This document shows positions 17,401 to 63,793 of a stretch of 64,000 nt of DNA, one piece after another. The stretch's first letter is position 1, and every line of letters begins with the position of its first letter. The DNA lies in contig NC_058043.1 in the NCBI RefSeq assembly GCF_020085105.1, positions 8,690,667 through 8,754,666 on the forward strand. Direction: 5' to 3'. This stretch comes from Siniperca chuatsi (taxonomy: Eukaryota; Chordata; Actinopteri; Centrarchiformes; Sinipercidae). The notes beneath the pieces are model-generated. The model worked only from the letters and a program-made list of their open reading frames with translations. It was not told the origin of the DNA and ran no database searches. A program made the position numbers and the translations under genes.

Positions 17401-19518
17401 GCTGCCAGGCTGACAGTTTTGTGACAAAAAAAGAGCCCACAAACAATCCACTTGTCTGCTGCAAAACATTTTTTCTAGTACCTAGGGAACAATCTCAAGT
17501 TATGGGTGTGCCTGTCACACCGCTCTGCCTCTTTGCATTCAACACTTCATTTCCTCCACCATATAGTGAATGACCAATTAGCAATTTACCAGTGTTTCAG
17601 TCAAACAGTTCTTCATTTTACCATCTACAGTCTGCTCAGTGGCATCTTTTTGTTTTGGCTCTGCCTTGAAGCCAGAGGAACTACTGCCAATTCTGTTGGT
17701 ACATCCCCATAAACAAAGGCTTTGGGTTTGGTTGTTTTTTTCTAACTTTCAGTCACGACAGACAAGAGCAGCAACCACATAATGAAGATCTCCTTCTGCC
17801 AGTATAACAATTGATGAACACATGACTAATGTTATGTTCTCATTTTTGTTATCAGACTGATGTGGAGGAGGCTCTTCCTCGCTGGGGGAAGAACTCTAAG
17901 TTGGTACTGGTTTCCTTGCTGCTGACTGGCCTGTTGCTGGCTGCACTGCTGGTAGCTGGTTATTTCCTCAAGACCCACCGCAAGAACTCCAAAGGAGTCA
18001 GACTGGTGAGTAGAACAGAGAAGGTGTGTCACAATGTTAATGTCTAATGAGCCAAAAATCTGTACTCATTTATACTTCAGGAAACCTTAAAGTTGTTTTT
18101 CACATCACAGATATAATTGTTATCATCTTTTATTTCAGAAGCATTTTTTGTTATATTTGTTAAAATTCTCTTTACATCCCGACATCAATCAATAAATCAA
18201 ATGCTCTGGAGTAAAAAAAGAACAAAATCCGGTATCTATGGCTGTCGCAGGCCTGTAATAAGCCCATCCAATCTGGCTTATTGCCTGTCTACCTACCTGC
18301 CTGCACTTTGCCCTTGCAGTCATTGCGCATGAAAATGTGTATTGGGGGAGTTGCTTTTTGATTGTATACTTAAAATCTAGCTGTCTCTTGTTAGTTTCTC
18401 CAATGTTACCTGCCCTAGTTTTTAGCTACATTTAAATGCACTCATTATGTCAGCTATTAGACAAAGTGTACTGACAGAGACCCTGGCCCACCTGGACCAA
18501 CATTTTCTTTTTACCTTATTTCCCCCTTCAGTGCTTTCAGTGCAAGTAAAGAAAAGCATCATGGGCTGACAATGAAGCAACCATCTTTACTAACCTAACC
18601 TAAAATAATTTAATTTAATTTAATAATTTGGCCCCACAAGATCCAGCTCACTGAAGAAATTGTACAGCATGTTTATTTGAAAGAAGTACATATGGATTTG
18701 AGGTCAAACATATGCTTATCCTCCTGTCAATTCCGCACTCAAGGGAGGACATGTTTGACTCATATGTCCCTTAACTCAAAACAGCATCCCCTTTCCAAGG
18801 ATCCACAGATGGTTTTAGTTTTTTATTTCCTCTCAAGCCCAGAACACCATTTCTTAAGAAGCATTTACACATGGGGACACACCCATGTGATGGTTTGGAT
18901 GGATTGCTGAATTGCCTTTGTTTAGTGTCTTATTCAGTGAATACATTTCTGTCACAGGCATCAAATATTATTCTCAAAGTTCTTGCCAACAGACAAAACA
19001 TCTCACCAAACAACAAAGTCACTTACGAAGGGTTCACATTTTCAGGCAGAAGCAAAGTAAAACAACAGGCAAGCATGCATATCGTTAACCTCAGTAAAAC
19101 AATTACCAGAACCCTTCTGAGTGCACACACAGCTGAAACCCATAAACCTCATTAACGAAAAATGCACGTTTATTTTTGAACATCCACAAAAACAAATCCA
19201 TTTTCAATTACACACTCTCTTGCTTGTGTGCATGTCATATTTAAACAGTAAAATTAAACTCGTTGGTGTTAAATGTGTCTCTTAAACCTGTGAGCTCTAA
19301 CACCAGTGTGGTCTGTGTGCTTTTCTTAGGCTGAATCTTTCCAGGTGGATGAGGAGAACCAGGCCAATACCCTGGTGTCTGTGGCTCCCCTGCCCCAGGA
19401 GCCCCTCGACAAGCCGACTGTCAATGGCGAGTCTCCACCAGAAAATGGGACCAACCCCGCCCCCACCACTAACGGACACTCTGCCACCCAGACCCCAGTG
19501 GCTGACACGGAGATGTGA
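2915..19518 (+). CDS. cd34: CD34 sialomucin (complete, 8 exons, 348 aa)
   Basis: Exons: 2915-2999, 13215-13322, 14076-14323, 14606-14698, 16479-16599, 16958-17010, 17856-18005 and 19330-19518. All introns are GT-AG and the phases agree. Order of parts: signal peptide (about residues 1-35, core MAFALLLIISILNG); a Thr/Pro/Ala/Glu-rich mucin-like stretch (to about 147); a cysteine-containing domain (VICV, SSNC and LCGEDC cysteines in exons 4-5); a transmembrane helix (about 252-274, ending VAGYFL); and a cytoplasmic tail. Family recognition rests on the GYFL end of the helix and on the tail motifs ENGT, NGHSA and a C-terminal ADTEM, matching human CD34 (ENGT, NGHSA, ADTEL). The last residues form a PDZ-binding motif. 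CD34 is a surface sialomucin of haematopoietic progenitors and endothelium, used in adhesion. Human CD34 is 385 aa; the shortening is in the mucin part, and the ectodomain has no N-X-S/T sequon. Podocalyxin and endoglycan are the alternatives, but the tail favours CD34. Confidence 0.9.
6942..6970. repeat. Perfect inverted repeat, 12-bp stem, 5-nt loop
   Basis: GTAATGTCAAAG, then AGGTA, then the exact reverse complement CTTTGACATTAC. It lies in cd34 intron 1 and no gene or terminator role is evident. Confidence 0.85.
9040..9597 (-). mobile_element. Interspersed repeat, LTR-like, copy 1
   Basis: On the minus strand this reads TGTCATGGTTTGAGGG near 9545, then a long T/C-rich body (CCTGTTTTATTTTG, CCTTTCCCTCCAG), and ends near 9070 with CTGCATTTGGGTC. 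The segment at 40548-41075 carries the same blocks in the same order on the plus strand, so this is a dispersed family, seen twice here in opposite orientations. A C/T-rich body followed by a CTGCATTTGGGTCC end is familiar from fish genomes as a non-coding, possibly LTR-like element. The 150-codon open frame on this strand is not a gene. Boundaries are approximate. Confidence 0.6.
11400..11462 (+). mobile_element. Fragment of a LINE 3' end
   Basis: TTTCCCTACGGGGATCAATA followed by AAGTATTTCTGAA matches the 3' tail of fish non-LTR retrotransposons as I remember it (TTTCCC, GGGGATCAATAAAGT). Related pieces occur reversed at about 3855-3885 (AGAATCAGAAATACTTTATT) and 58365-58395 (GTCCCCATGGGGAAATTCT). 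Confidence 0.5.
12099..12131. repeat. Perfect inverted repeat, 14-bp stem, 5-nt loop
   Basis: GATCTTATTGCAGT, then TATCT, then ACTGCAATAAGATC. The arms are exact reverse complements. The site lies in cd34 intron 1, about 1.1 kb before exon 2. Confidence 0.9.
14364..14443. repeat. (TA)n microsatellite
   Basis: About 40 uninterrupted TA units in cd34 intron 3, starting some 40 bp after the exon 3 donor. Confidence 0.97.
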
Positions 19519-22821: not shown

Positions 22822-24239
22822 AATACTCAAGTACGTCTTGACTTGCATGCTACATGTCTGTGTAGGTGTATATCAAACATATATATGATATATCAAACAA
22901 AGTATGTAAGTTTTCTTTCCAAGATAATAGAGAATGTGCTTGTGCTATGAGGTAGGGCTAGTATTTGCCACTTGTTTAGAAAAGTAATGAAAGTAGTATA
23001 TAATGTAAATGTGAGGAAAAGATAGGATACTAATAATATAGTAGGATAATTGTTTCCCTAAGCCATTAGAAAATGATTTGTACAATAATCCATGCCTGAT
23101 CTGTTATGGATATATATCCATGTCTTTACAAACACATTAAGAGCTGAAATTGTGATGTGATTTTGATTCAACTGTAACCCCATGATATGCATGTTAGTGG
23201 TAATTATTTAATAAAAATAATTAAATAGCTTTATTCTGAATCATGTTCTGCTTATCACTCTTGTTATGTACATATCTTTCCAAAGACATATTCAGTTGCA
23301 TTTATTTATTAATCCCTAGTGCAAATGAGATTAAATACTCATGGAAGCAAAATAAAATTGTTGATGTTAAATCAGTATCTTAACAACAAAACAATAACAC
23401 CTGTTATTATTGCTGTTACTGTCAGTAACGGTCCAGTGCTAAAGCCAGCAAGTGTTTTGGGACAAAAAGGCAATGACCTATGGGCTCCTGATGGCCGAGA
23501 AGATTCAGTCACACAACACTTGGTTACAAGGTCACCTGTCATTCTGGGTGTGGATACTCTGGAGACAGAGTATGCATGTGTGAAAAGCCTAACTCTGTAT
23601 GTGTGCAGTTGATGTAGCCAAAGCATATTAACCACTGCTGTCATTCTAGCTGATGTGACCTTTTCCCAACCCTTGCTGTTACACTCTTGACAGCCTATAC
23701 ATTCCTGCTGTAATGGTTCTCTTACCAAGCCCACTGGGCTAGTAGCTACCACTGTCTGTACAGCTGCTGTAAAGCTGAGTGGGTGCAAAGGTCAGCGTGG
23801 TGTTTGTTGATAGCAGCTTGGCAATCACTCTGAACAAGGATGTATCGCTCAGTCGCTAAAGATTCTTACAACAACAAATATCCCAGCGTGTGTGTTTATA
23901 CCAACATCAAATCTCTCATTTGTCACACAGTCAGGGCTACAGTTTATAGTCTTCATGTTTTACTAGACTTCTTTTGCAATGGTTTTTCTATTCATTTGGC
24001 CTACATATTCTCCTACACATACACACATTTTGGGAACAACTTGGGGTTTAGTGCTTTGCTTAAGAAAACTTTGACATGTCGACAGGAGCAGCTAACAATC
24101 ATACCACCATCCCTAAGATTAATGAACCACTCTACCACCGGATCTACTACCCTAAACTTGTCAAGGCATGGACATGATCAGATGCATCTTTCATACAATC
24201 CCAAGATTTCAAACATAAGCCAAGCAGCCTAATCTATAA
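22822..24239. other. Intergenic, no gene seen
   Basis: AT-rich sequence with no supported exon. A degraded SINE-like fragment lies near 24020-24150 (TTTGACATGTCGACAGGAGC), related to the better copy at 45420-45642. Confidence 0.6.
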
Positions 24240-24272
24240 ACACTGGTGGAAGAAGTATTCAAATACTTTACT

Positions 24273-25676
24273 TAAAAGGAGCTGTATGCGACATTCACTG
24301 CCACTAAATGTTGCACTAGAGCACCAGCATCTCAGACCAAAACAAATGGGCGCTATGGCCCACCAGACTCCATTGAGAAAAACAGTATTTTTACCTTGCA
24401 GATCAGACTCCAGTCTGGTTATTGAGTGAACCACAGCACAGAGACAGCACTACTGAAAGTTGTAAATGACCTGAGAATTATTGTGGATGCAAACAATGTG
24501 GCTGTCCTTCTTCTCTTAGACCTCAACACAATCGACCACAAAATTTTAATTGAGAATGGGTGGGTCTCTCTGACAGTGTTTTAACTTGGTTTCAGTCATA
24601 TTTAACTGATACAGTTTTTTGCTCATGTATCTGAGACTCATTGTATTGATTAACAGACTCATTGTCAGACTCATTGTATTGATTAACAGGGTCATTAAAA
24701 CATCTTTTTTCCATCCCAGAAATATTGCCAAAGTCAGACCTTTTTTAACTCAGAAAGATGCTGAAATACTCACTCTTGCTTTTATTACTAGCTGTTTAGA
24801 CTACTGTAATTCACTTTTTACTGGATTACCCAAAAAGTCTAAAAGAAAACTACAGCTAGTTCAGAATGCTACGGCCAGAGTCTTGACTAAAACAAAGAAA
24901 ATGGATCACATCACCCCACTGCACTGGCTACCTGTATCTTTTAGAATTTAATTTTAAGTTCTTTTACTTGTTTATAAAGCTTTAAATAAGCTGGATCCTC
25001 CCTACATCAGACTTTCTCTCATTTTATGTTCCAGCCAGATCACTGAGGTCCTCCACCACTTATCTTTTAAATGTTCCTTATGTGTCCCATAAAAGTATCA
25101 GTGAAAGTGCCTTCTGTTCTTATACACTTAAACTGTGGAACTCACTGCCTCTGAATATTAGAATGGCAACCTCTCTCGGCATTTTAAAAATAAATTAAAG
25201 ACTTTGACTAAATTTGGTTTATATAAAATATATTATTTTTATCCTTGATGTTTATTTTATTTTTATTATATTGAGTTCTGTGTATTGACTTTTAACACTT
25301 GCAATTGCTTAATAATTGTAAATTTTAGTCTTACAAAATGTTTTTTCTTTTTTTTTTCTTTTGCGTAATCTTACTATGTAAAGCACTTTGGGCTACATGT
25401 TTGTATGAAAGGTGCTATATAAATAAAGTTGAGTTGAGTTATATCGCTCCCCACAAAACCAACAGTTTCACAGGGAGGGACTCTCATGCACTAACATGCA
25501 TGTGTGGCTGGACCGGCTACCAAAACAAAGAACAGAAAATCTCAGGTGACAACACACATAGAGGGAGTGTGATGTCTGTCTCTGCTCAGGATGTCATTAC
25601 TCCACTATATCTTTGTATAGCAAATAACTGTTTGCTGCTATATTAATGTTCAAAATGTCGTATACAGAGCCTTTAA
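24273..25676. mobile_element. Middle MITE flanked by TTAA
   Basis: The left terminus is TTAAAAGGAGCTGTATGCGAC and the right terminus, reverse-complemented, is TTAAAGGCTCTGTATACGAC. The termini are inverted and near-matching with TTAA at both edges, so TTAA was probably the duplicated target inside the outer element. This MITE is itself split by the LINE at about 24425-25443. Confidence 0.6.
24425..25443 (+). mobile_element. 5'-truncated L2/CR1-like LINE
   Basis: Broken reading frames resemble the end of a non-LTR reverse transcriptase: STETALLKVVNDL at about 24440 and VLLLLDLNTIDHKILI at about 24505. These are followed at 24712-24950 by FFHPRNIAKVRPFL, SCLDYCNSLFTGLPKKS, LQLVQNATARVLT and HITPLHWLPVSFRI, the typical C-terminal block of fish L2-type elements. 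The 3' end has AAAGCACTTTGGG, GGTGCTATATAAATAAAGTT and a short GAGTT repeat. Stop codons and a partial internal duplication near 24630-24690 show it is dead. Confidence 0.85.
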
Positions 25677-26699
25677 GTTAAAGTGGCAATACCACTGTGT
25701 AGAAATAGTCCTGCAGTCAAAATTTTACCTATCTAAAAGTACAGAAGTATTGGCAGCAAAATGTACTCAGGTCTTAAAAGTAAAAGTATAGGATGCAGAA
25801 TGATCCCTTTCAGACTGATAAATTGTCATATAGGTTACACTATATTATTGGATTATTACAGACTCATGAGCATTTTAGTGTTGTAGCTGGTCAGAATAGA
25901 GATAGCCACTAGAGGATAGTTTAACCTTTAACAACACACATTTCATAAGCTGATACAGTATTTTGTATGTAAAACCTTAATCTGCAAACTAGTAACTACA
26001 GCTGTCAAATAATATAGTGGGGTAAAAAGTACATTATATACTGAGAACAAAATCTTCAACTTTTTTTCTTATGGAGAAGTATAAAGTAGCTTAGAATGGA
26101 AATATTCACAAATAGTACAAGTAGGCTATCTCAAGTACATTTATTGAGTTATGTGATTTTCCACTGCTGCACATATGGCACTGATGCAAGAGAGAAAATT
26201 AATAGTCACCAACAGTTTAGCTGCATGGACAAACAACCTGTGGAGAATCTGTTTTAGGTAGAGCAAACTTATTCCATGTGCCAATTGGGTTTCCAGCAAA
26301 GCACAACCAATAGTAAATTATCTCCTTCCTCATCATCAGCTATTAGGTTGTTGTATGGACTAACATTTCCCTGATTAATCCCAGGGAGGCTATGTTGAAT
26401 ACTATCTTAAAATTGAACTCATGCGGTGTTGTTTTCGACACGGAAATTCCAGTTTACATGGTTATTTCAAAATTCAAACAGAAAATATTTCCAAATTTCC
26501 AAAACAAAACTACTTTCAGAGGTGTGTTTTAAAACTTGTCAGGCCCACACTTCACGAGGCACCACACCCGTGTAAACATACGTGTACTTACTGAGAGAGT
26601 GAGAGTTTATCAAGAGACGAGTAGAAATGCCATAAAATAGCGAGGTATTTGTCTTTGATATGAACTGAGGTCTCACTCGCGAGCCAGGTGATACCCCGC

Positions 26700-26775
26700 C
26701 AAAACGTGAGTGACGTGTCAATTACCGTAAGGGACAGTAAAGTGGAGCAGTGAGTCACGTCAGGTACCGTAAATT
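26700..26775. promoter_or_regulatory. Cluster of CRE/AP-1-like motifs
   Basis: TGACGTGTCA at 26711, TGAGTCACGTCA at 26751 and two TACCGTAA-type blocks lie within about 60 bp. These resemble bZIP binding sites. They sit 1.4 kb upstream of the GC-rich start proposed for the miR-29 host transcript. Their activity is not shown by the sequence. Confidence 0.3.
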
Positions 26776-28139
26776 ACACTAAAGAAACTGCCTGTTATCA
26801 GACAGAATTGTTAACTCGGTGGAGTGGGCGGATTCAAAGGTCTGGACTCAGGCAACTCAAGTAAAGCAGTGAGGCACGATTTACAGAAGGTAAAGTAAAA
26901 CTACTCGATTTATGGCTTTTCTTGGCTTTTCTTGCATATACCAGAATGAAAAATGGATGTGAAGTCAAAAGGAAATAGGGAAGCAAAAATAGCACCATGT
27001 AGCCCCAATGCCTTCTGTGTTCCTTGTCCTTGATGTAGGCCTATGTTTCTTCTCAGAAGTTGCATCATCGAGTGGTTTCTTGAGTCAGAAATTTAGTTAA
27101 CAAAACGTCGTGTCTCCTCGGGCCTCCTGTGGCCCCTCAAAGCAGCTGGTCCTTGTCCTGGTCTTGGCCATAGGACAAAATACAGTAGCCTATTCTAAGT
27201 CACTGTAAATTCAACATTGAGTAGGCTATAAGCTACATAAAATTTATACTGAAGGTCTGTAATGTCAATTCAGACACATTATAGCCTACCCTACTCAGTT
27301 AGGTATATATGATGCCAAAGGACATTCAAAAAGCTACACTACACAGTCACTCTGCCAAGCCATTTTGATGTGTTACACTGCCATCTGTTGTAACAAAAAC
27401 GGCATTGCAATTTAGGCGATATTTTTTTGTCTTGTCACCTCACCAATTCCTGCTGGATCTATGGATTACAAAACATTAGTGTAAAGACAAATCATTATTC
27501 AGACTTAATGAAGATACTACACTAACAAACAGGTCCATATAAGTTCATATCCTAGGATATGACGTGGATATTATGACACCCGGCTATAGCAGGAGGTCAG
27601 GAGTAAGTACTGACAACATAAGACTTCTGTGTAGCATACAGGACAGTGATTTCCAGCCTTTTTGGTCTGTGGCCCATTTAAAATGAAGCAGTTACTTGTG
27701 GTCCCTCATGAGTTGTTAGCAGTTCAACCAAAAGTTGATTTGGATTTGTCTGATTGAAGGATTTGTAAAGGCCTGTAGAGGTGAAAGTACCCAGTATTTC
27801 ACAAGAACAAAAACAAACATTATAGAAAAGTAAACAAAATGAATACGTTTTCTGTATCGGATCGTCTCTTGTTATTAATCCCCCAGGTTGGGGCCCACTG
27901 GCCTATAGGAACAAGTGAGTCTGCGGTTCCTTCTCTCTATATCCCTATAATATGCCATTTAATATCCCTATATGGCTATCAACAGGCTGTGGTATTCACT
28001 GTCCGTGTCCTTGTAAATAGAAATGTTTATTTCATTTTTTCAAAAACAATAATAGGCTCTCGGCACGACATCTGGCAGCTGCGTCAAAATGAGGTAGTTT
28101 ACGGTAAAACGGCGCACATTACCATGTGATTTCACCGAT

Positions 28140-28442
28140 GTTTGTAAACATGCGTCAGCCACATGTGATTCTGGCGATGAGGAAAGACTCTCCAGCCGCC
28201 CGGCCAACCAGCAGCCGGGGGAGTGTCAGGGGCGGGGTTCCCGTATTGCCCTATGGAAAATCGTTAGGGGGATACACTGTGATAAACGTGCGCTCCGAGA
28301 TTGATAATAGCGACAATAAGGCTGAAACAGGAACCTGGTGGACTGACCATTCACCGAGGACCGGGATTGAGTGGCGCCGGCCGGGAAATGGATGAGACTC
28401 CTTCGGCATGGGACGGGAGGGAAACAGGCTTGGGATAAACAC
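28140..28442 (+). ncRNA. Putative promoter and first exon of the miR-29b/29c host transcript
   Basis: This is one of the few GC- and CpG-rich segments in an AT-rich region, with GGGGCGGGG at about 28230 and many CpG dinucleotides. It ends at a strong splice donor, AAACAC|GTAAGTTA after 28442. Open frames here are short and look non-coding. The nearest strong downstream acceptor followed by recognisable content is at 34273, before the microRNA exon. I infer that this is the start of the host RNA, equivalent to human MIR29B2CHG. It could also be the promoter of an unrecognised gene such as the orphan segment at 29625-29810. Confidence 0.4.
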
Positions 28443-29624
28443 GTAAGTTATTTATAGTTATAGTTATTATAGGGCGAGAGCGACATAATACTGCGTATGT
28501 TGCGTAGTGAATACCACTATGTAATTCATAACCACTCGAGTGCTGGGTGGAAAGGTAAGAAGAATACAAGCCCAGAGGCACTGTTGTAAAAGTGTAAAGA
28601 ATAATGAAAGAAAGAAAATTAAAGTTCTGTATTTGCAGGCAAACAGGGCGCGCGGGCTTGTTGATGAAAAAGGTTCTAAACACTTTTTTAATCCTGGGTG
28701 TTTCATCATCGACATGACAACAGGTAAATTAAACTGCGTCAGCGAGAAGGACCGACAAGCCACATGAAATCCAGTGGGAATTTCCGCTGCGATGGTGGAA
28801 CGTGCTGCGACGGCATGACAGCGTAGTTGTGCTCGGTCTGAAACTTAAGTTGAGCCTGAATTTAATGTTAAAATGAAGATGTAAACAAAGCATGGAATCG
28901 GCGGAGATGGCGTGTGAAGGAAGAGCTCGGAATAGGATGCTGCGCAAGAGATGGATAGTGCGTAATCCTGTTGTGGGAGAGGACGATATTACGCAGTTCA
29001 TATTGGCACGATCATTTAACGCCTCGTGGTCTTTTTTTCTAGTGTTATTAGAAATAACCGATACTTTTTATATAAAGCAGGATAAAGATACTTTACAAAC
29101 ATGGTCACAAATTGACGCACGGAGGGTTGTTCTATTGTTTATGTAATTTCAGAGCAAATAAAAACTTGAGCTTCAAGTGAGCAACACAATGGTGACGCAG
29201 CTTGTTTTATCTCTCAGTAGTCAAACTACATTTGCTGCGTCACATAGAACCTAGGAGGTCCTTAATAGTAATCTGGCTTTTTAGTGCGCACTTGATATGA
29301 TGAAAACAAGCTCTATTTCCCAAACATAGGGGGTGCTACTGAGTTACAATCCTTGGGCTGAATCATCTGCTGTAAAGGGATGTTGACATACAGGTATTCC
29401 TCATCGACCCCTAAACACTCACTGTTTTTACTTTTTATCTTCGGGGCCTATTTTACCCCATTTTGTACTGATACCATGGACCAATATAATGTGATTATGT
29501 AACTAAAGTAAATTACACAAATCCTTGAGCTTTCTATAACTGAGTTGTACTTTTGGAGTCCTTAAAGCTGTTGTTGATGTGAGAGAGCCATTTAAGATTT
29601 GTATCCCTTTATTAGACCTTGTAA

Positions 29625-29810
29625 TGCACACCTGCCAGAGCACAACAGGACACTGACGCGCCTGATGTGGTGACACTGTTGCTGTTGACACCACGGTCGC
29701 TGGCCTCTCGTACCTTCCTAATGACCCTGGTGAAGGAGGGTGTGTTGCCTCCCGCAGCGTACCTGCACGAGGAACGGGAGATGAAGCGCTTCCTCGCCTC
29801 TCAGAGCTGA
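29625..29810 (+). other. Orphan coding-like segment, possible terminal exon
   Basis: An open frame runs from after a TAA at 29622 to a TGA at 29808 with strongly coding-like codon use in an AT-rich region: many CTG, GTG, GAG and AAG codons, with C or G in third position. It reads VVTLLLLTPRSLASRTFLM, TLVKEGVLPPAAYLHEEREM and KRFLASQS before the stop. A possible acceptor, ACACCTGCCAG, ends at 29638. I do not recognise the family and find no certain upstream exon. It could be the last exon of a small gene starting in the GC-rich region near 28140-29150, a relic of a gene copy, or chance. Confidence 0.35.
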
Positions 29811-31776
29811 GGTGAAAATGAGACACACGGGAGGAGCAAACTCCTTCCTGACGAGCGGATTTGTTCGGTCAGTGGGTGAATCAGCAGTAGACCTCACGAG
29901 TTGTTAAACCACTGGCAAGGAAATGGAAAGAGAGAGAGAGAGAAGGAGAGGGGAGCTTTAGAACTTTAATTATGTGTACTGAATAGAAACTTGACTCCCG
30001 AGGGAATGTCACTATGGTAGTTTTGAAACAAACAGGTAAAGGTCATGGGAAGAAGTACAAGCTGATCACTGTGTCAGGGGTTTCCTCACAGCAGAATATC
30101 CCTTGTGCTTATTTGCATTATTCTGAAAATATGAAAACCAGAAATCTTCTCATCAGAATATTTTTACTGACTGTGAGTATCATGTCCTGTGCAGTCATAA
30201 TGTTTACCATGTCTTCTGAGGCTGACCAGCAGAACAAGTGACCCACTTTCGCAGACAAGGAAACGTGACCTCAATAGTTATTTTGCCATTCTTACAGGGA
30301 GGGGCGCTGCCTCTCAAGTCAAACAAACAGAGCCCAGTACAAGTGGGCTAAATGCGATGCATTCAACCTAGTTTCTTTTAGAGTTCTTGGAGCAATTTCC
30401 CTATAATGGTGTTATTGAGTACTACAAAAAACAGTCCCTGCTTTTTCAGCTGGACCAAATGCAGTTCAGCAAATGCCGTCGGGCCAAAACTAGATGCAGC
30501 AAGCAAGCACTTATAAAAGACTCCTGGTGAGAGGCAGTGTGATGGATGTGTTTACAGCAGGGGGCCAGCATCACCTGTAGCCCACAGAAAACTTCAGAGA
30601 AAATGGTGAGCGACCCACTGCCTTTTAAAACAGATCCCTCCTACACACAGATTATAGAATAGGAGGTGGCACAGAGCCAAGAGATGACAGTGCTAAAATT
30701 AAACTCGGAGCGCTGCTGGCCTCGCTAGATGATGATGTATTAATAGACAAGTGTGAGGCAGCATTTATTCGCAGATATCATTAGCAGCTAGACACCTAAC
30801 GTGCTGCAAAAAGGGCAAAAAAACCTACTGTAAGCTACTGTGCTGAAACCCAGAAGGTCCCTCTCCTTACTGCTGTTATTAATTGCCTTGATTTTCCTCT
30901 GTGCAGAGGTACGTATTAACATATTTCTTTACGATAAACAGTACATAGGAGGATGAAATAGTGAGGTTATTGTTGCTTCAGTGTTTTTTTCCAAAGTGTC
31001 TGCTAATCAATAGGGAACACCAGTCGTGTTTTCTGTCTTCCTGGAAACCTGATCTGCTTCACAAAAACACCCTACAGGCGCATTTTAAGTCTTAATGTAC
31101 GCATTTAACTCATAAAGCCACTCCTGTTATTAGCAAGACATCTGATATTTCCCAAAAGGCAGACTGAGAGCCAGTAGAGGGTGACAAAGTGTAAATCAAC
31201 TCTTCCGTCTCTGGCCTTCCCATCTATTTCTATCCATCGTGCAGCAGATAGAACAAACAAAGTGTCAGGCTCATCTGAACCTGTTAAGGCTCTCACATCT
31301 CCAAACATTTCGCAATTTGTTGCTCAGAAGAGAAGATGATACAACATAGAAGGAGATATCTAAGCTATTACACGATCCAAACACAATGGACTTACAGGCT
31401 AAATCAGCATTAGTTCAACTGTTGTGAGTTTTCCAGGTGATCACAATTCACATATGTACATATATCCCAGCACATTGTAGAGGACCCGAGATTGAGGATG
31501 ACACATACCACCCCACGGGGGCTTAGAGGGGGATTTTTTTTGTAATAATATATATACATATGTAAAAATATAGTATTAACAATATTCTGAAATTTTGAGT
31601 CAAGATATTCTGTAGTTTTCCCTGATGCGCAAATGTTGAGAGGTGGTTTAAAAACACATTACCTCAATGAGTTTGCCCCTCTCACTCCTGATAAATTAGG
31701 ACCTCTAATCTGTAAGAGGATTAACCACCTACCCTATTTCCACGTGCATGCATGCACACAACCCCACCCCCGACTG

Positions 31777-31814
<38 letters not shown>

Positions 31815-34273
31815 TCACACACATAGAGGCATTCAGTGCTCATTTTACGTCACCTACTCTGATATGACCCAACTGAGTGGCTCTCCCTGTGACACAATTT
31901 GGCCTATAGCAGTCTGTGCTGCCTGATGCACAATGGGATATGTTTATCTCATTTTTATAAACCAAATGGATGTGTTATTTTATTACTCTTAAATCATTTG
32001 ATCAATTTCTTTGTGATTGAAGAACTAATTATTATATTGTAGCATCTGTTCCTGCGATTTGATACAGTTTGATATAGTGGCTCTAAATTCAACCAATAGT
32101 TGCTTGATTCATTTTTGTTTTGGTTTTAAAATGGGCTGATGCGCCTTTAACAGGCAGTAGATGGTCAGGTGACTTGGCAGAAAAAATGCTTCGATGCAGA
32201 AAGCAGCCTCTGCGCACACAATAGTCGGCGAACAGAGCTTGTAGTAAAACGAACAAGAGAGCAAGAGAGAGGTGGATACAGAGTTCACAAATAGCAGTGT
32301 TACATAGGAGGAGTCAGATTAGCAAAAACAAGGAGAAGACGGATGAAAGCAGTGTTGCGGCCTTCATTCTACACTGATTGCCTGAGTTATTCTCGAAGCT
32401 GACACGGTATTCATTCAGTAAATACTAGGAGTGCTTGTCGAAATTGAGGATATTTTAATCTTTTGTTAGGGTCAAAGTACATGTCTGTAAAACAATGATG
32501 GCCATCATGCCCACATTTGATTAGCAGTGGCGAACATATAACCAATCAGTACAACTGCTGTTGTTTTAGAAGCCAAGACACTAAACTAGCAGTGGAGAGG
32601 ATTAGGGAGTGACAGACAGGGAAATTGTCCCCGAAAGACACATGAAGGTTTTGGATTAGTTGCTACGTCACCTTTTCCCATCAACAGGACAGCAGCGTCT
32701 GAGACACTGACAAGGCAGATAATGCCAGACTTTTAATGCCAGACCTACAAATAGAATCCAGTGAGTTTTCCACATTAATTGTCTTGGTATTGTGCAGTAA
32801 TTTCAAAAGAAAATAGGAACGGTAATAGTGACAGAGAAAGTCTCAAATGAGCTCTCTGTAGACATACTGTACTGCATGCCTCATAGGGATGGACAACAGG
32901 GGTTCATACTAATGAATCCTTACCTATTTCAGGATCTGGCTTTTCCATCTTGCACCACTGTAAACCTCACTTGGACCAGGAGCGGGTCTGGATGCCTGAG
33001 GCAGACCCAGGAGAGGGCAGAGAGAGTATCCTATTGTGCATTACAAAGAAGTCTACTGGGAGCTGCGGAGATCTATTTTTCCCCAGTATGATTCATAGAC
33101 AGTTTTTGTCGGGGTTCATCTCTGGTGCCAGTCTGCTGATGTGCCCTTTCTTACACTGAGATCTTGGTCATCTGATGCACTTCTAATGCAAGGAATTGAG
33201 CTGCTGTGTCATTCTTCGTGGAGCTGGCTGTGACTCAGTGGTTCTTCTTATTGGTCTTGGTGCCAGCAAAGAGTCTGTATCTTTCTGAGTTTCTGGTTCC
33301 TTTTCTGTCTGTCTCTCTCTTTGCGAAGAGCTGTAACTCCAAATTTTAAAGGATAATAGTATCAGCTCAAATACAGGCCTTTGGAAATATCTCAAACTTA
33401 TCAATCTATTGACTAAAATGTGCTATGCTTATAACCCATATTAGTTTTTGTAGTCAGTAAAATGTAGTTTGTGCAAATACTTCACTTCACAGTGTGTGTG
33501 ATAAAACAGGTGGGTGTTCTGTTTCCCATTAAATAACCAAAAGTTTAGATGATGGTTATCAAACATTCTTTTATGCAATTTCAACACCACGCCTAAACTT
33601 GAAGGCAGCATTTCAAACAAACTCCAGAAGTTTACGCAGGCAAGAAAAGATTTGTGTGTGTGTGTGTTAAGAAATCAGAGTTCTCCCTATCAAATAGCCA
33701 TGAGAAGAACAGATCTGTGCTTGTAAGTGTTGGAATTTGTTTTCCTTCAGAATCGCAGCCAGAACAAAAACAAATAGGTTATTTAACTAACTGCCTGCGT
33801 GGCACTGTTTTCTGTCTTTGTCCATCTGTCCAGGGTAACATGCTATTACCATACCTTGTTATACCATGTACCATGTTTATTTATCTTTATTGAAATAGAG
33901 TTTGTGCAGATGACAGATCTATAAGTACAGTATCCTCTAAAACCATCACATGTCCATCACAACAAAGCAAAGCAGTGAGTATATTAAGCAGTTTGGCATG
34001 ACACTGGATAAGAACCTCTGTCTAATGGAAATTTAAATTATTAAAAATGTGATTATATTCCTTGACACAAATCAAATGTATCCACTGATAGGATGAGATA
34101 CTTTTATTGATAGTATTAGAATCATTTATTTGGTAAAATGCATGCAACATGTTGATTCATTTCATTGTAATAATCTGATACTGAAACAATGAGTTCCAGG
34201 TCTGGTTCACTAACATCATGCAAAGAAATGTTAAAAGGTGATGATGGTAATGTTTATTTTTTTCTAATTGCAG
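29811..34273 (+). other. Probable host-transcript intron; no gene seen
   Basis: No supported coding exon. It contains GA repeats near 29930-29945, a (CA)n tract at 31779-31812 and a juxtaposed acceptor/donor motif at 30904-30914. The segment would be intronic if the host RNA runs from 28.1 to 35.2 kb. Confidence 0.4.
31779..31812. repeat. (CA)n microsatellite
   Basis: About 17 CA units. Confidence 0.95.
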
Positions 34274-34315
34274 AAGGGGACATGGTTTCCAAATGTGTTT
34301 TTTCTTGAATGCATC

Positions 34316-34402
34316 CTCCCCAGGGAACTGGTTTCAGATGGTGTCTTAGAGTATAAAATCCTGTCTAGCACCATTTGAAATCGGTGTTCTTGAGCGGGAA
34401 CA
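34316..34402 (+). ncRNA. mir29b: mir-29b precursor (microRNA)
   Basis: The 3p mature sequence is at 34366-34388 and starts TAGCACCATTTGAAATC; its seed AGCACCA is that of the miR-29 family. The 5p arm at 34328-34349 (starting CTGGTTTCAGATGG) pairs with it across a loop of about 16 nt. The 3p carries GGTGTT at the end, so this is the miR-29b type; the usual AATCAGTGTT is AATCGGTGTT here. miR-29 represses collagen and other matrix genes, DNMT3 and MCL1 in mammals. The identity of the mature sequence and the paired arms make the call firm. Confidence 0.93.
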
Positions 34403-34696
34403 GACTTCAGGAATGACGACAGTGACAGCCTCATTCACTAAGTTGCCAGAAAGTTTGGGATTGCAGTTTGATGGTATTGTTTGCATCCACATTTTTACAA
34501 ACTATTCCATACTTATGATACATTGAGTCAAATTAATCAGTTTAGGATTATTACAAAACAAGATATGCACTGATAATGGAATTATGTGTCCATTGGTTCT
34601 GTGGATTGGTTTTCTATTCAGCTTATGCTCCAGTGATCAGAAGAAAAGGAGGTGTTAAGGATAAGTCCAGTCTTCAGACAACTTGACCCATCTCTC

Positions 34697-34775
34697 ACCA
34701 AGGCTGACCGTTTTCCTCTGGTGTTCAGAGTTTCCATCATGTCTAGCACCATTTGAAATCGGTTACAATGTGGAG
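34697..34775 (+). ncRNA. mir29c: mir-29c/29a precursor (microRNA)
   Basis: The 3p mature sequence at 34744-34765 starts TAGCACCATTTGAAATC and ends GGTTA, identical over 22 nt to human miR-29c-3p as I remember it. The 5p arm at 34705-34726 starts TGACCG and ends TGGTGTTC, like miR-29c-5p. The two arms flank a short loop. It lies 378 bp after the miR-29b mature start on the same strand, so both probably come from one primary transcript, in the mir-29b-2/29c order. Confidence 0.93.
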
Positions 34776-35191
34776 GGACTATCAACAAAGCTTTGGCTTC
34801 AGCAGTTGCATGATGAATTTCCTCAAAGTGCCAGAAGATGGCAGTATTGATCCATGCTACCATCCAAGGCTACCAAGGTTTTTAGAATCATTGAGGCAGT
34901 GAATGTTTTACTAGATGACCCTGATCAGGAACAAGACCATCAAAACAATAATAATTCAGTTTTTTCTTCAACCATGTTGCCTTCACTCAGCCCTGCTGTG
35001 TGCAAGTTCATGCTACAGTTATCATGTCGTGTACTTTTCTTCCAGGAACAGATGATAAACAATGAGATTATCTGGTTAAATGCTTCAGTAGTTAAGAGTG
35101 CAGAGTTTTCCTTGTATTTAAATATTAAAATAGTGTAAAATTTTAGTTAAATTAACATATGTTGTCCATAGTGCCAAACTGTATTTCCATT

Positions 35192-35197
35192 AATAAA
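35192..35197 (+). terminator. Polyadenylation signal of the miR-29 host transcript
   Basis: A canonical AATAAA follows the second hairpin by about 430 bp, with GT-rich sequence downstream (AAGTTGTAGTGTTTC). Confidence 0.45.
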
Positions 35198-35784
35198 GCA
35201 AAACTGGTTTCCCTCAAAGTTGTAGTGTTTCATTTATCTCATTGTTTAAATGAAGCAGGTTTGGCTTGACCCTGATTATGTCATTTGAATTTTTATAAAA
35301 ATGTAACAAATAGGTTTTTTGTGTTTGATATAATTAATGTTCAAGTTCAATATGTTTTTGCATTCTTTGTCACCTCTGTTCGGTTTTAAGGAAGAGAGAC
35401 AGAAGTTTGACATCAACTACTGTAGATTGCCATTGAACCATTTCCAATTATAACCTGTCACTTCTCAGATCACAGAGGCAATTCTTTTGAGTTTTTGCGC
35501 TTTAAGTTCAATTTAATTATAGCTTGTAATCCTATAAAATATGCATGCCTGATGTTCTCATGCTCCATTACATGGAGACTAGATGGGGAATAAGGGCCAA
35601 TAAAAGCATTAAAAACTCAAGCCCGTAACTGTCAACCCTGTTACCCTCCACATGTCACATGGCTGACTTACACATGAATGCAGCTGTATTTTTGAATAAA
35701 TGAGTGAACATTCTTAATTCAAATTTATGAATGATTAACCCACACTGTCAAGGTTAACAGATAAAGCAATTATGAATCTACACC

Positions 35785-41457: not shown

Positions 41458-44400
41458 TTAACAGATAGGCGCGGTTCCATTTGCGGAGCTGGTGTTGACA
41501 AGAAATGAAGAGAAAACTGTTAAGGTTGAGCTTCATTCACACAGTGGTGCAAAAAAGGAAAATAGCACACCATTCATGTTTTATTGGCTATTTGTAATAT
41601 CTATTTCATGTTCCCACTTAAACTGTATGTTAGCTTTTTTTTTTCCTGAGAAGTAAAGTGAACAACAAACAATTCTTCAATATGGTTTTTAGAGGTATTT
41701 TGGTTGTTTTATGGTAATTGCTCTTGATAGCAGTAAAAACACAGGAATTGATAGGTACCTTAGTCAGGCAGGCAATCTAAAGATTTTGGAACTGTAATAA
41801 CTCCGGCTTCAGGTCTTCTCCGGTGTCATATGAGCTATAGTGTCATCAAATAAGGAATTTGTGTCAGAATTATTGAGCATTTGTCAGAATTGTATTAGTT
41901 AACCAAATGGTGTTTTATTGCATACTTAATTAAAACTTTGAGAGAATTATTTTTTTGTAAAGTAAGCTTTAACCTTGATTATAATATATAAAGAGCAATT
42001 CATGTTTAAGGAAAGTTTCTCTGGCATTTGGTTTATCTGGTTTACAAGTGAAATTCACAAGATAAATATCAAGTTCGCAGTTAAAAGCTTGTGTTAAAAG
42101 TGCCTTCATCTCTGGACTCAAATTCAGGTCACATAAATGTCTAATGAACCTGCTGCAGAGTTAGCTATTTAGAAGTTACTGCATATTACTTTGACCTGTT
42201 TGTTACTGTGCATTTAAGAGCAGAATGTGCAAAGAGAAAAAGCAACAGAAGGATAAAAAGCATAATCAAGTATGAGTCATGAATTAAAAATTAAACATTG
42301 GATCTCACCCTTTTTTCTTCAGAAGTAACTTGTATAAACCGAAAACTATAGATACACCTGTAAAGAAAATAAATTAAAATGATTGTATTTCAACTGTAAA
42401 CTTTAGTTAGTGTGTGAAGTCCAAAGAGAAAAGTTGTACATTACCTAGTAGAATGACTATCAGGCTGATTATAGCAGGTGTATATCCTGAAAGACACATG
42501 CAAAATTAAATGTAGAGCAAAAATAATCACCCATGTAAACATCTTGATGGGACTGGGGTTCAATAACTCACCAATATCCTTGTTAGTATCTACAGCCCCA
42601 TAATGCTTGTCTGCATGTATAAAACAGTTTTATTAGTATGCAAACAATTTCAACTACCACAGATAACATGATTGACTCAGGCTACATCAGAAACATTATC
42701 AACACATACAAGAAGGTCTGTTACACAATGAGCATCTCATTTACTGATTTTAAAGCCACTTATCTGTACAATGTTTGTAGATTATAGCATCTTTCAAATT
42801 ATTTTGCTCATATGTGCTTGTAGGTAGAAAAGGTTATATGTATGTTGGATCAGTGAGGGGGAAGAAGATTAAAAGCATGAATATATTAACTGGGACGGGG
42901 ACTGAGCGAGGGAGACACATGTCCCAGTATATGAAATGACAGTTCTTTTACAGACAGTAAAACATTAAAACCATTGTTAAAAATTACAAGGCAAACTTAG
43001 AGCAATACATTTGAGTTAAAGGAATAGTTTCACATTAAATGAGAAGATTGATACTACTCTCATACGTGTCTATTAAATATGAAGCTATAGCCAGCAGCTG
43101 GTTAGCTTATCTTAGCATAAAGACTGGAAACAGAGGGAAACAGCTAGCCTGAAAAAATGAAACTCACTAATTAACATGTTATATCTCATTTGTTTAATCT
43201 ATGCAAAATCGAAAGTGTGAAAAAAACTATTTCCCATTTTATGGGGGGTTATGAGCCGAATTATATCTTGGCTGTGAGCAGTAGCTTCCGGGAGTCTCCG
43301 CTGGTTGCCTTCAACTGCTCAGACCCAAGAAATAGCTCAGTACATTACCCCTCATAAAACAGCAAATTGTTGTTTTTATCCTTCTGTTCATCTGACTCCC
43401 TGCCAGAAAGCAAATAAGCGTATTTCCCTATTTGTTAAGTTAAATTTGTTAGTTCAAGTATTCCAGGAAATGTCTACAAATGTAACTGAATCACTAAGAA
43501 TCCCATTTACTGAGTAATTTCAACTACTGTCCATTACTTTCCCATTATGACCAGTTTCAAAGTATTAAATCTTGTGTTTGACTTACAGATCCATTTTAGT
43601 TATTATTATATATTTTTTCATCCCACAAATCTTTCTTCCCTCCACTGAAACAACCAGGTAATTTAACTGAAATAACAAACAGACCACATAGACATAAATC
43701 ACACAAAGCTCAGAAGTCTACATGTTTCTAAAGTTTAGAGGTATATTGTACCAAGAATTGCTTGGGAAGCATCTGCTCATGGGAGGTACAGAAACAATCC
43801 ATGGAACAGAAGTCTGTTATTAAATTTTAGCTTGTAATCATGCAACTTCCAAATGGAAAGAAGATTCAAACTTGACTGCTTCTTCGTTCAATTGTTCAAT
43901 ACCTTGAGATGAAGATGATGTTACACTGGTTGTAGTAGCGTTGTCTTTGGCTGACAAAATGTCTCTGCCACCTTTGAACAGAAAGATCAGAATGATTCTT
44001 AATTCTTCTTTGGACAGGATAAAAGTGATTCGTCAAGCAGAGAAGACTTCTGAGATGCATGCAGCATACACATAATCCATTCTTGCTGCCAAGTGCTGTT
44101 ACATGCTGATCTGCTTCTGTACCTTGCACTGAAGGTATGACAGTTGGTGCTGTAGTGGTTGTGATAGTTTTATCTCTGTGAGCTGTGGGTGTGGCAGATG
44201 AATCTGTAGAAGTGGACGCTTCTGTGACATGGAAAATAATAATTGTTGTCAAAATATTTTTGCCACCTATAAAGGAAAGTCTTCTTAATCTACATGCTGA
44301 TCTGCTTCCGTACCTTGCACTGAAGGTAAGACAGTTGGTGCTGTAGTGGTTGTGATAGTTTTATCTCTGTGAGCTGTGGGTGTGGCAGATGAATCTGTAG

Positions 44401-46926
44401 AAGTGGACGCTTCTGTGACATGGAAAATAATAATTGTTGTCAAAATATTTTTGCCACCTATAAAGGAAAGTCTTCTTAATCTACTGGATTCCTTCTAGTG
44501 ACAGAGGTACAGTGAAAATGATTGAATATCTATCAATTATTATCTTTAAATTCTTCAGTGTAAAAATATTTTAAGGATTTCTGTTTGTAAAATATTTCTA
44601 TACCTTGTGCTGGAGGTGTAGACGTTGGTGTTGCCATTTTTGTTGTAATTCTACCTTCTGTTGTCACACCTATGAATAAGAACACTACTGAATTTATCTG
44701 GGGTTAAAAAAATATTGTTCATCTGCCATTTAGGAGACTGGTGGTGGAGCATGCATACAGATTTCATTTTACATGCAGAATGTGCTGTGTCTACAAATGA
44801 AAGTTATGCATCAGTAACATGCTTCTTGTTGTACAGACATGAATGGTGAATAGAAACATTTTGTAAAGCTTGAATACTGCTTCATAAAAGAGCTAGGAGA
44901 AGAGTCTGTAGAGAAGGGTTTAAGTGATGATGTTTAAACTTGCCAGCAGTGTATTCAATGCTGAGTGTTCTCAGTGACACCTTAGCAACACCTACAGTAT
45001 GTGCACTGTATTCTATTTAATACAGTAGATAAATATTGCATTTGGGTGCTTGAAAGTACACTGCAAACTCACTACTGATCTTACAAACCTCTGTTGCCCA
45101 TTAAGGATTGGGAAGTTATCGAAAGACCACGCACATGGTTTTGCATGTCTTACAAATCATGCACTGATTACATGGCAACATTTCAAAGCATAACAGAGGT
45201 TTTCTGACTGATTTATTACATTCCAAGCAACCACTGTTTTATAGTTATTTCCCTACAGTATGAAAAACTTACAGAGCTTTGAAACTTGCTTAAAACTTGC
45301 TTCGTCAGGGCATTCACAACACTTTGTTGTTCTTTTTTTCAGTTTCATTTTCAGACAATTTACTTTACCTGGTTAATGCAATGCTAGTAGTAGTTGGACA
45401 AAGTTTGCTCACAACTGCTTTATAAATGTATAATTGTAAGGAACTTTTATCCAAAGCGCTTTCAAATTTTGCCTCTTATTCACACACTCACAACAATGGT
45501 GCTGGCTATTGGAGCCATCGGGAGTAATTTGGGGTTCAGTGTCTTTCACGTCGACATGACATGAGGAGCTGGGGATTGAACCCTAAACCGTGTGATCAGT
45601 GGACGACCCGCTCTACCTCCTGAGCCACAGCCGCCACATAGGGATATCATACAGTGTTAACATAACTGACAAAAAATAAAGATAACAAATGTTAACTTGA
45701 CGGTATAATGCTTAAGTCAGTACCTGCGAGCTGATATTCATATTGCAGTGAAATGAATGGAAAGCATTGGCTGTATAAAAGACTGGAAATCTATCTACAA
45801 ATGTATGATTCGAAAATGGTCTGCAGTAATGCAAAGAGTATTTGTAAATAATGGGTTAAAACATACCTACATAAAACTACCTATGTGGTCCTTACATTAA
45901 ATAACTTGAACAATAATTGATATGCATTAAGAAATATTGTTGTGTAAAACACATGGATGGAGTGTGCTTACCTTGGCATTCAGGAGGCTGAGAATCGTAT
46001 TTACCAGTTTCTCTGCACATAATGCTATCTTTCCCAATGAGGGTGTGTCCTTCATTACAGATGTACTGTACGATGTCTCCATATTTTGGGAAATTGTGAG
46101 AATCCCATGAGTTTCTGCCATTGGTCACATCACTCGGTTTATCACATGTTACAACTGAGGAATCACACAAACAGGTGTTTTCACATATTATTTTCACAAC
46201 ATAATTTAGCATAAAAATAAATAATCCATATTGTTGTCATATAAACTGTGCTACTTGCTGACGGATACAGAGACTGAGAAGAGAGAAAAAGCACACATAA
46301 AGTCTGGGCACAGAGGAAGAAGAACAACTTCACAAAGACAGAAAAAACAAAACCACTGCTCTGTAAGCCATGTGTTAAAATGACTCATGCAAGAGAAGAA
46401 ATGTAGAAATGTACCAAAACAGTAGTTTTAATGCTTCTGGCTGTGGCTTCAAAAAATACAATATAAGAGAAATTTACTTTCACACTTGGCTGCTCTCCTA
46501 CTCCACCCTGCCGCATAGCACTGTTTGAAGCTTGATCCCCTAATCTGGTAACTGTTGAAAGACAGAGGAAAATAAAGCAGGAATTAATATTGTAGAGACA
46601 TGATTTTGTTATGCAATGGGAAAGAAATTTCAACATTGGAATTCAATTCTCACAGAGTGTGTGTCAACAACTCTCTCAATGTTTCAAGACTATTTTGTTT
46701 TCTTTAGATACGTTTTCCATTAGCAAATCCACCTTGACTTCAGTCATCTAGGTCTATTTGCCAGCAGCACTGTTTGGAAGACAACTGTTGGCTGTACAGC
46801 AAAAAGATATACTTTGTGGTTTGTATGTAAATGAACATGAACATTACGGCTGTGACAGTTTGTCTGCATTCCCTTAGTGTTTCCAAATATTATTCCCCTG
46901 CCCTGTGTCTCCTATCTCTCCCCTGT

Positions 46927-46982
<56 letters not shown>

Positions 46983-48760
46983 AGGCGAGGCTACTCCTCC
47001 TGACTCTGTCCACTGACTCCTGACTCCACCGCTCTCACTCACCTGAGATCCTTCACCCAATCACTCCTCTCAGCCGACACACCTGCCAACCATTGCTTTT
47101 GCTAAAGCATTCCGTCTGTTCTTGTTCTGTGTCGTGTTATATCCGCCATACGCTCCTCGTTTGCTCCTGCCTGTCTGTCTGCCACATGTCTCTCAGCCAT
47201 GGCATCGTCGCCACCATTACCTCACCTACCTGCTTACCTCTTCTGGATCTTCATCCCAGTCTCGCCAAGCTCCACCACCATACCTTCACGTCCTCGCTGC
47301 CAGCTCTGGATCCCAAGCCCTGGTCTCCATCCACTTCCCCTTTCTTTAATAAATCTCTTTATATTCCTACCCCTTGTCTGAGTCCTGCACTTGAGCCCAA
47401 CCGTTTAGTAAAACGTAACACTGCTGAGTGCTCCCTGTGTGTTGTCACCGGAGCTGCTCCACTTGCTTCTCAAAATCTAAGACATGTAATTCAACCAGAG
47501 TGCAAATAGATAGGAGGATATGATACCATTTACATTTATACTCACCCTTTATCACAAACTACTCTTATTACAGCACCAAACAGGGTACCAGCGCTGGTAT
47601 TAAAGCTCATATTCGGTTGAGGTGTAGGGGGACCACAGTCCTTCCCTGTAATATAAAAACACACAATAGAACATTGCTGCTGCACTTTTATGCTAGGACA
47701 TTAACCCCATAATGGCAGAATAATGACTGTTGGTTGTCAACAGTAGAAGACTGTGTTTGATAAAAGTGTCAGTAGAGTTATAATAAAAGTAGACAGGACT
47801 CACTTTTGCAGGTGAGATCTGATTCAGTCCAATTTCCATCAATGCATTTTATAATATCAGAGCCACTTTCGGTAACATATCCTTTAGCACACTCTAAAGT
47901 GACTTCAGAACCCTCTGGAAAATCATTCTTTAGAAGTGATGCGTCGGTCAAGACAATATTTGGCCTTCCCTGAGGTGTAGGACAGTTGGCTGGGGAAAAA
48001 AGATACAAAGAGGGAACATCAACAGCGACATCGTTTTGTTTCAAAATCAGGCATGATGATCCAGCTGCAGTCAATAAAACAGTAAACCTGAAAGCCTCTA
48101 ATGTGAAGAAATAAGTAAATAAATAAAGCTAATATCAGACTTACCATATAGTCACTTTGAGATTACACAATACATGTGAGAAAATGTGCGCTGGACTTTC
48201 AGTTTGTGAATGCCTAATTTGCACATGCAAGCTTTTGTCTTTAGTGAAAAAACACTTTCTAATAATATGTTGAAAACACTGCTGAATAAAATGCAGTCCA
48301 GTAGAACACCATCACTAACTATGACCTCAGTGCTAAAACATATAAATTAAATTAACACCTCTATGAAAGTCTCAACAAAACCTGAACATTATAAAAGTAG
48401 ACTTTATGGCAGAACAGTTGTATTTGATTGCATCATACTGTACAGGTGTACAAGTTAGTATAGAGTAATCTTATTGGTTTTTAAAAAGGTTTTAAAATCA
48501 CCAATGTTAAATTTGTATGATTTTCTGCATAATTTCATAGAAGCTGACATTACAGTAAGTGACAGTTATTTTTCTGTGGAGTTGACAGAAAATGCAGCCT
48601 ACTGGAACTCTCATGTGACTTCGTATGTTGATAATTATTATCTCATAAACCAGACTGCGAGGCTGATGTTATACTGACCTGCTGCCTTCATGACCAAGAG
48701 GTATAGTAACAGCAGACATTTGACTCTTCGCTCTCCACGTGTGTCCAGTAAAACTTCCAT
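41458..48760 (-). CDS. CD46/Tecrem-like membrane complement regulator (complete, 13 exons, 372 aa)
   Basis: Exons (minus): 48760-48679 signal peptide; 47989-47804 CCP1; 47645-47546 and 46551-46478 CCP2, split; 46154-45972 CCP3; 44669-44604, 44412-44314, 44221-44123 and 43971-43903 Ser/Thr/Pro stalk; 42610-42572; 42486-42445 and 42357-42309 transmembrane; 41488-41458 tail and stop. Every junction is GT-AG and phases agree. Each CCP shows four cysteines and a GY or GH turn: CCP1 28-89 (ANCPTP, LECAKGY, IIKC, TCK), CCP2 90-147 (DCGPP, VCDKGYQI, WSRRAAKCE), CCP3 148-208 (VTCDKP, YICNEGHTL, PPECQ). The stalk (209-319) is O-glycosylation-rich; the helix is about 335-357, followed by KKK and a short tail ending in Cys. 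Proteins of this plan (CD46, CD55, fish Tecrem) protect own cells by inactivating C3b/C4b or decaying convertase. The transmembrane end argues against a GPI-anchored CD55. Activity itself is inferred from family and position. Confidence 0.85.
43015..43430 (+). mobile_element. TTAAAGGAATAGTTT-type MITE, copy 1
   Basis: GTTAAAGGAATAGTTT, GATTGATACTACTCTCAT, AGCCAGCAGCTGGTTAGCTT and AGACTGGAAACAGAGGGAAA match a highly repeated fish element; a second copy lies at 57245-57665. This one is inside the intron between exons 9 and 10 of the complement regulator. The right end is unclear. Confidence 0.7.
44102..44483 (-). repeat. 191-bp tandem duplication containing a stalk exon
   Basis: 44102-44292 and 44293-44483 are near-identical; I find two base differences. 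Each unit holds one 99-bp, phase 1-1 exon of the complement regulator plus its splice sites, encoding EASTSTDSSATPTAHRDK and the residues after it. The frame is kept when both copies are spliced in, adding 33 residues to the stalk. Confidence 0.93.
45420..45642 (-). mobile_element. tRNA-derived SINE
   Basis: Read on the minus strand it starts with GGCGGCTGTGGCTCAGGAGG TAGAGC (A-box like), continues through a spacer to GGGTTCAATCCCCAGC (B-box like), and then runs into an unrelated body (ACTGAACCCCAAATTACTC). This is the layout of a tRNA-headed SINE. It sits in the intron between exons 5 and 6 of the complement regulator. Confidence 0.65.
46931..46981. repeat. (GT)n microsatellite
   Basis: About 25 GT units, directly abutting the repeat at 46982-47425. 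Confidence 0.97.
46982..47425 (+). mobile_element. LTR-like interspersed repeat in an intron of the complement regulator
   Basis: A C/T-rich non-coding body is followed by TTTCTTTAATAAATCTCTTT, GTCTGAGTCCTGCACTTG and AAACGTAACACTG. An AATAAA followed by a GAGTCCTGCACTTG-type end is typical of a family of solo-LTR-like fish repeats. The open frames in it (up to 138 codons) are by-products of the C-rich sequence. Confidence 0.5.

Positions 48761-55550: not shown

Positions 55551-63793
<8,243 letters not shown>

Follow-up and report, generated by a model that had tools for sequence, protein, structure and literature searches.

The 64,000-nucleotide stretch of Siniperca chuatsi contig NC_058043.1 analysed here (positions 8,690,667 to 8,754,666 of the forward strand, hereafter the window) contains two hairpins of the mir-29 microRNA family on its + strand. 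They lie between exons of a CD34-family gene, upstream and on the same strand, and SCR/sushi open frames, downstream and on the - strand (Table 1). Taken together, the hairpins and their neighbours indicate that the locus is very probably the orthologue of the mammalian miR-29b-2/miR-29c locus (host gene MIR29B2CHG), with the hairpins as its microRNA genes.

Table 1. Features of the mir-29 locus and its flanks, with positions counted from the first letter of the window; numbers of paired bases are those of the minimum-energy folds.
Feature	Position	Strand	Basis
CD34-family exon with transmembrane segment, exon end uncertain	17856..18047	+	Pfam PF06365, E 1.7e-7
CD34-family last coding exon, ending ...VADTEM stop	19330..19518	+	PF06365, E 3.9e-11, profile 141-204 of 204
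CpG-rich stretch, candidate promoter and first exon of host RNA	28001..29300		CpG content
Putative terminal exon of host RNA, 3' end approximate	34274..35215	+	Acceptor, AATAAA, human analogy
mir-29b-type precursor hairpin (29b-2 by position)	34322..34390	+	Rfam RF00074, fold
Predicted 5p arm, first hairpin	34328..34349	+	Pairs with 3p arm; ends from human miR-29b-2-5p
Predicted mature miR-29b-like 3p UAGCACCAUUUGAAAUCGGUGUU, G at position 18	34366..34388	+	Sequence; 22/23 bases paired
mir-29c precursor hairpin	34702..34768	+	Rfam RF00074; fold; 73/88 positions identical to human mir-29c
Predicted 5p arm, second hairpin	34705..34726	+	Pairs with 3p arm; ends from human miR-29c-5p
Predicted mature miR-29c-3p UAGCACCAUUUGAAAUCGGUUA	34744..34765	+	Sequence; 18/22 bases paired
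Candidate polyadenylation signal AATAAA	35192..35197	+	Weak alone
SCR/sushi open frame, complement-regulator type	45892..46236	-	Pfam PF00084, E 1.5e-10
SCR/sushi open frame, presumably same gene as 45892..46236	47778..48128	-	PF00084, E 6.7e-10; frame scan E 6.3e-8

Two copies of the sequence TAGCACCATTTGAAATC are present on the + strand, starting at 34366 and 34744 (378 apart, start to start); the - strand of the window has none. Both copies lie in hairpins matching the Rfam mir-29 model (RF00074) over its positions 1-70 of 70, with 66.0 bits (E 3e-12) for the first and 55.9 bits (E 1.9e-9) for the second, against a gathering score of 46.7 bits; no other Rfam family was found at gathering level in the window. 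Folded as a 91-nt piece, the first hairpin reached -37.7 kcal/mol (z -4.85), which none of 200 shuffles equalled, and the second -29.5 kcal/mol (z -2.97), equalled by one shuffle of 200. The minus strands of the two hairpins gave weaker folds (z -1.58 and -1.27), and the stability of the 501-nt region folded whole was not unusual (z -0.97, with 20 of 100 shuffles equalling it). In the minimum-energy folds, the mature strand lies in the 3' arm and faces a matching 5' arm in both hairpins (paired bases in Table 1). An earlier reading of the letters of this DNA (the sequence-only reading) had placed here two miR-29 hairpins with matching 5p arms, 378 apart, and had proposed folding as a check; both copies, the model matches and the comparison with shuffles bear it out.

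Positions 2-8 of the 3p strand read AGCACCA, the miR-29 seed, in both copies. CNNC, a motif which aids Drosha, is found 17 and 18 nt beyond the two 3p ends, and UGU, likewise a motif with an ascribed role, at the loop side of both hairpins. As far as can be judged from their sequence, the parts of the hairpins fit canonical microRNA biogenesis. The ungapped repeat common to both copies comprises only 28 nt, namely the mature strand and a few adjoining bases, which speaks for an old pair and makes a recent tandem duplication of one hairpin unlikely; when the two 91-nt pieces are aligned with gaps, 64 positions are identical, counting those of the mature strand.

For assigning the hairpins to members of the family, they were aligned with human mir-29 sequences. 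The second hairpin scored 127 with human 29c, compared with 83 for 29a, 68 for 29b-1 and 64 for 29b-2, and its mature strand has the end CGGUUA and a U at position 10. Judging by this mature end, the U10 and the alignment lead, it is of the 29c type, in agreement with the sequence-only reading. The same reading held that the first arm ends as miR-29b, which is accurate for the last bases, GUGUU, and wrong at position 18, where the strand carries G and not A: the first 3p arm ends with CGGTGTT (CGGUGUU as RNA), and the AGUGUU looked for at positions 18-23 is replaced by GGUGUU. Human miR-29b is given as UAGCACCAUUUGAAAUCAGUGUU, ending in CAGUGUU (PMC2871053). Position 10 is a U in both mature strands of the window, while miR-29a carries a C there (PMC8603934). 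G18 is still paired in the fold, position 34383 forming a G-U pair with 34329. In a literature search restricted to main texts, strings with G18, including GAAAUCGGUGU and GAAATCGGTGT, led to no miR-29 paper, the shorter strings being judged by title, while the string with A18 does retrieve miR-29 papers, by title, in the same search.

Positions 18-23 have been called a nuclear localisation sequence unique to miR-29b, although miR-29c has also been placed in the nucleus (PMC8603934). In addition, miR-29b forms with a shortened motif stay nuclear-enriched, and the motif fails to enrich another microRNA (PMC2871053). An effect of G18 on localisation is therefore uncertain. It is doubtful that G18 breaks the AGUGUU nuclear-import element in this lineage, which would give cluster products differing only at their last bases and sharing targets and location; if it did, any nuclear role would pass to another 29b copy. 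As a naturally occurring variant, the G18 form could serve to test whether AGUGUU acts in nuclear import. The substitution, along with the weaker stem of the second hairpin (z -2.97), could also be read as a sign of degenerate or silent copies whose processing has been lost, but the seeds are intact, the stems and the CNNC spacing are kept and G18 is still paired, and we consider such a loss extremely improbable.

The neighbouring genes were identified by Pfam matches, with frame scans (E <=0.01) covering the + strand at 8001-35102 and the - strand at 21001-35102 and 36003-64000. The transmembrane exon of the CD34-family gene lies in the open frame 17826-18047, for which the frame scan gave PF06365 slightly above the curated cut-off, with an E of 6.2e-6. 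The translation of the last coding exon has the tail ...ENGTNPAPTTNGHSATQTPVADTEM. PF06365 takes in podocalyxin besides CD34; the tail of this exon resembles the C-terminus of human CD34. On the other side of the hairpins, the SCR frame 45892-46236 has PDB matches to CR1, CR2, factor H, CD55 and CD46, among others, and the gene of the SCR frames would be of complement-regulator type, its identity as CD46 being putative. Human MIR29B2CHG presumably shares its strand with CD34, while CD46 is on the other one, and the window shows the same strands, with the CD34-family exons and mir-29 on + and the SCR frames on -, as well as the same position between genes of these two types. In human and mouse alike, MIR29B2CHG is flanked by CD34 and CD46, and its direction is conserved (PMC8268529). 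A published gene list for the locus reads CR1L, CD46, AK123177, MIR29C, MIR29B2, LOC148696, CD34, PLXNA2 (PMC3751720), so that the order seen from the CD34 side, 29b-2 and then 29c, is the same in this list and in the window.

The CD34-family and SCR neighbours are the strongest evidence for orthology to the miR-29b-2/29c locus and, together with the covariance model and the folding, they sustain the comparison with human MIR29B2CHG that the sequence-only reading had proposed, the neighbours standing in human gene order. Several points weigh against this assignment. The first hairpin scored 102 with human 29b-1 and 93 with 29b-2 and is slightly nearer to the former in sequence, so that the name 29b-2 is given by position. 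Among the PDB matches of the SCR frame 45892-46236, CD46 ranks below CR1, CR2, factor H and CD55. A frame with a C-type lectin domain (22372-22821, +; PF00059, E 2.2e-11) stands between the CD34-type gene and the hairpins, and no C-type lectin gene is mentioned at the mammalian locus in the excerpts of the literature on it. Finally, the SCR frames are followed by a MAGI-like PDZ gene, at the place that CR1L takes in the human list. The alignment scores of the first hairpin and the inclusion of podocalyxin in PF06365 would also suit real mir-29 genes belonging to the miR-29a/29b-1 cluster (human 7q32) or to a lineage-specific duplicate, with CD34-like and SCR neighbours by chance. This is very unlikely: the second hairpin has a mature form with U10 and a 29c-like 5p arm rather than the 29a form, the tail ...NGHSATQTPVADTEM is similar to the C-terminus of human CD34, and flanks of the CD34 family and of SCR type, as in human and mouse, are not readily expected by chance.

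A literature search on CD34/CD46 synteny with miR-29 in teleosts gave no paper on the locus among the excerpts retrieved, and the miR-29 passages of a Nile tilapia paper (PMC5974277) and of a teleost review (PMC4159003) describe no b-2/c locus. Orthology in a fish suggests that the arrangement CD34 - miR-29b-2/29c - complement regulator of human and mouse is older than mammals, in which case the place and orientation of the host RNA would be old as well.

The sequence around the pair allows a putative terminal exon of a host RNA to be delimited. With AG sites scored by splice matrices on both strands, the acceptor ending at 34273 has a score of 10.0 and ranks 87 of 8293 scored AG sites. It outscores five of the six presumed acceptors of domain exons used as a control, which initially comprised seven ranges, the C-type lectin range being dropped since its start coincided with that of the open frame and it gave no usable acceptor. 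The strong 3' splice site reported at this position by the sequence-only reading is thus good by score. The AATAAA it reported at 35192 is present, but carries no more weight than chance when taken alone: the hexamer is present 79 times on the + strand, so that about one is expected in 942 bp. The human mir-29b-2/29c pair lies in the last exon of its transcript, whereas mir-29a/29b-1 lie in the last intron, and not in an exon, of theirs (PMC4856728; its introduction swaps the chromosomes of the two clusters with respect to its legend, the latter agreeing with PMC8603934). A terminal-exon model for the pair fits the human gene, and we regard it as probable on the strength of the acceptor and of this analogy. 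It is weakened by another acceptor-like site at 34324, inside the first hairpin, with a score of 8.2 and rank 181. The transcript could instead be unspliced or differently bounded, with neither the 34274 acceptor nor the 35192 AATAAA marking a terminal exon. The AATAAA is indeed common, and with a rank of 87 among the 8293 sites of both strands, an acceptor as good as that at 34274 is to be expected in every 1.5 kb or so of a strand, while five of the six control acceptors score below it; we give this alternative a real but distinctly smaller chance than the terminal-exon model.

A candidate for the other end of the host RNA is the CpG-rich stretch at 28001-29300, which contains 64 CpG with an observed/expected ratio of 1.04, compared with 0.28 elsewhere in the window; its GC content is 44%. 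This background ratio is lower than is usual for teleosts. Within the stretch, 28101-28500 reaches 52% GC with a CpG ratio of 1.05, GC-box hexamers are present at 28196 and 28230, and a 5' splice-like site at 28555 ranks 25 of 7630. On these features, 28.0-29.3 kb would be the likely promoter of the host RNA and hold its first exon, upstream of the hairpins by 5-6 kb. Two observations count against this placement: the classical rule for CpG islands needs 50% GC, which the stretch as a whole does not reach at 44%, and the best 5' splice-like site within 22.9-34.27 kb is at 33510 (rank 9), outside the CpG-rich stretch. The stretch could also be a transposon or the promoter of another gene; neither of its strands gave a Pfam domain at E <=0.01. 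A bacterial promoter scan of 28.0-29.4 kb was disregarded, as it is inapplicable to a vertebrate. Weaker CpG-rich stretches were noted at 26401-27000 (observed/expected 0.81), upstream of the main one, which may belong to that promoter region or be a repeat, and near 49 kb, with few CpGs and low GC. The human promoter is placed about 20 kb upstream (PMC4634951).

The sequence-only reading found no coding signature around the hairpins. This needs qualification, as an open reading frame of 94 amino acids starting with ATG is present at 34854-35138; it can nevertheless be taken as a chance occurrence and a peptide-coding role was rejected. Although only 4 of 300 mononucleotide shuffles reach its length, it is equalled by 27 of 500 dinucleotide shuffles, by 62 of 632 window tiles and by 9 of 196 tiles cut from presumed non-coding sequence. 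It has no Pfam match at E <=1 (the query starting at 34857, one codon late), and across all frames of both strands in 21001-35102, none of the Pfam matches at E <=0.01 overlaps the hairpins.

Among the other features of the window, the C-type lectin frame consists of a single domain whose nearest PDB matches are the PLA2-receptor and other domains of the mannose-receptor family. The open frame 24610-24951 (+) resembles by eye the end of a LINE-type reverse transcriptase, on which the Pfam frame scan (E <=0.01) was silent. Near the SCR frames, a 191-bp tandem duplication at 44100-44484 (2.0 copies, 98% matches) overlaps a Ser/Thr/Pro-rich open frame on the - strand (43896-44360), which has no Pfam match and is reminiscent of the mucin-type stalk of a complement regulator. 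Beyond the SCR frames (region 55551-63276), PDZ frames occupy 57.7-63.3 kb of the - strand, one of which has MAGI-2 (E 7.8e-20) and MAGI-1 (7.4e-19) as its nearest solved structures, followed closely by DLG4 (1.4e-18), and a 384-amino-acid open frame at 55551-56705, on the same strand, is without Pfam match. Long (TA)n runs are also present in the window and, like the short distances between the CD34-type, mir-29 and SCR genes, suggest a ray-finned fish, which the low background CpG ratio does not.

From the sequence we infer how the locus may be transcribed, spliced, processed and used. RNA polymerase II would produce a transcript, possibly starting in the CpG-rich 28.0-29.3 kb, which would be spliced to the putative terminal exon beginning at 34274 and receive its poly(A) tail near 35.2 kb. 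Both hairpins would be cut by Drosha and Dicer, and the 3p strands would enter Argonaute. Since both strands carry the miR-29 seed, they should share the targets of that family and may repress the usual ones, for example extracellular-matrix mRNAs, which are described as miR-29 targets (PMC4856728). It is an ordinary conserved microRNA locus, a known gene in another vertebrate with one small departure in sequence.

Three mammalian loci are relevant for comparison. The human mir-29b-1/mir-29a cluster (7q32.3) belongs to the same family and also has 29b first. It differs in the C10 of miR-29a (PMC8603934), where both strands of the window have U10, and in its location in the last intron of the transcript (PMC4856728), as opposed to the putative last exon here. 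Human MIR29B2CHG (C1orf132, 1q32.2) shares with the window the order b then c, the seed, flanks formed by a CD34-type gene and by a gene of complement-regulator type, and plausibly the placement of the pair in the last exon. The window differs from it in the candidate promoter, about 5-6 kb upstream compared with about 20 kb in human, in the C-type lectin frame and MAGI-like gene nearby, and in the G18 of the first mature strand. The latter also sets it apart from the mouse, whose miR-29b presumably ends in CAGUGUU. The mouse long non-coding RNA A330023F24, host of mir-29b-2/29c, is otherwise comparable in its position between CD34 and CD46 and in its conserved direction (PMC8268529).
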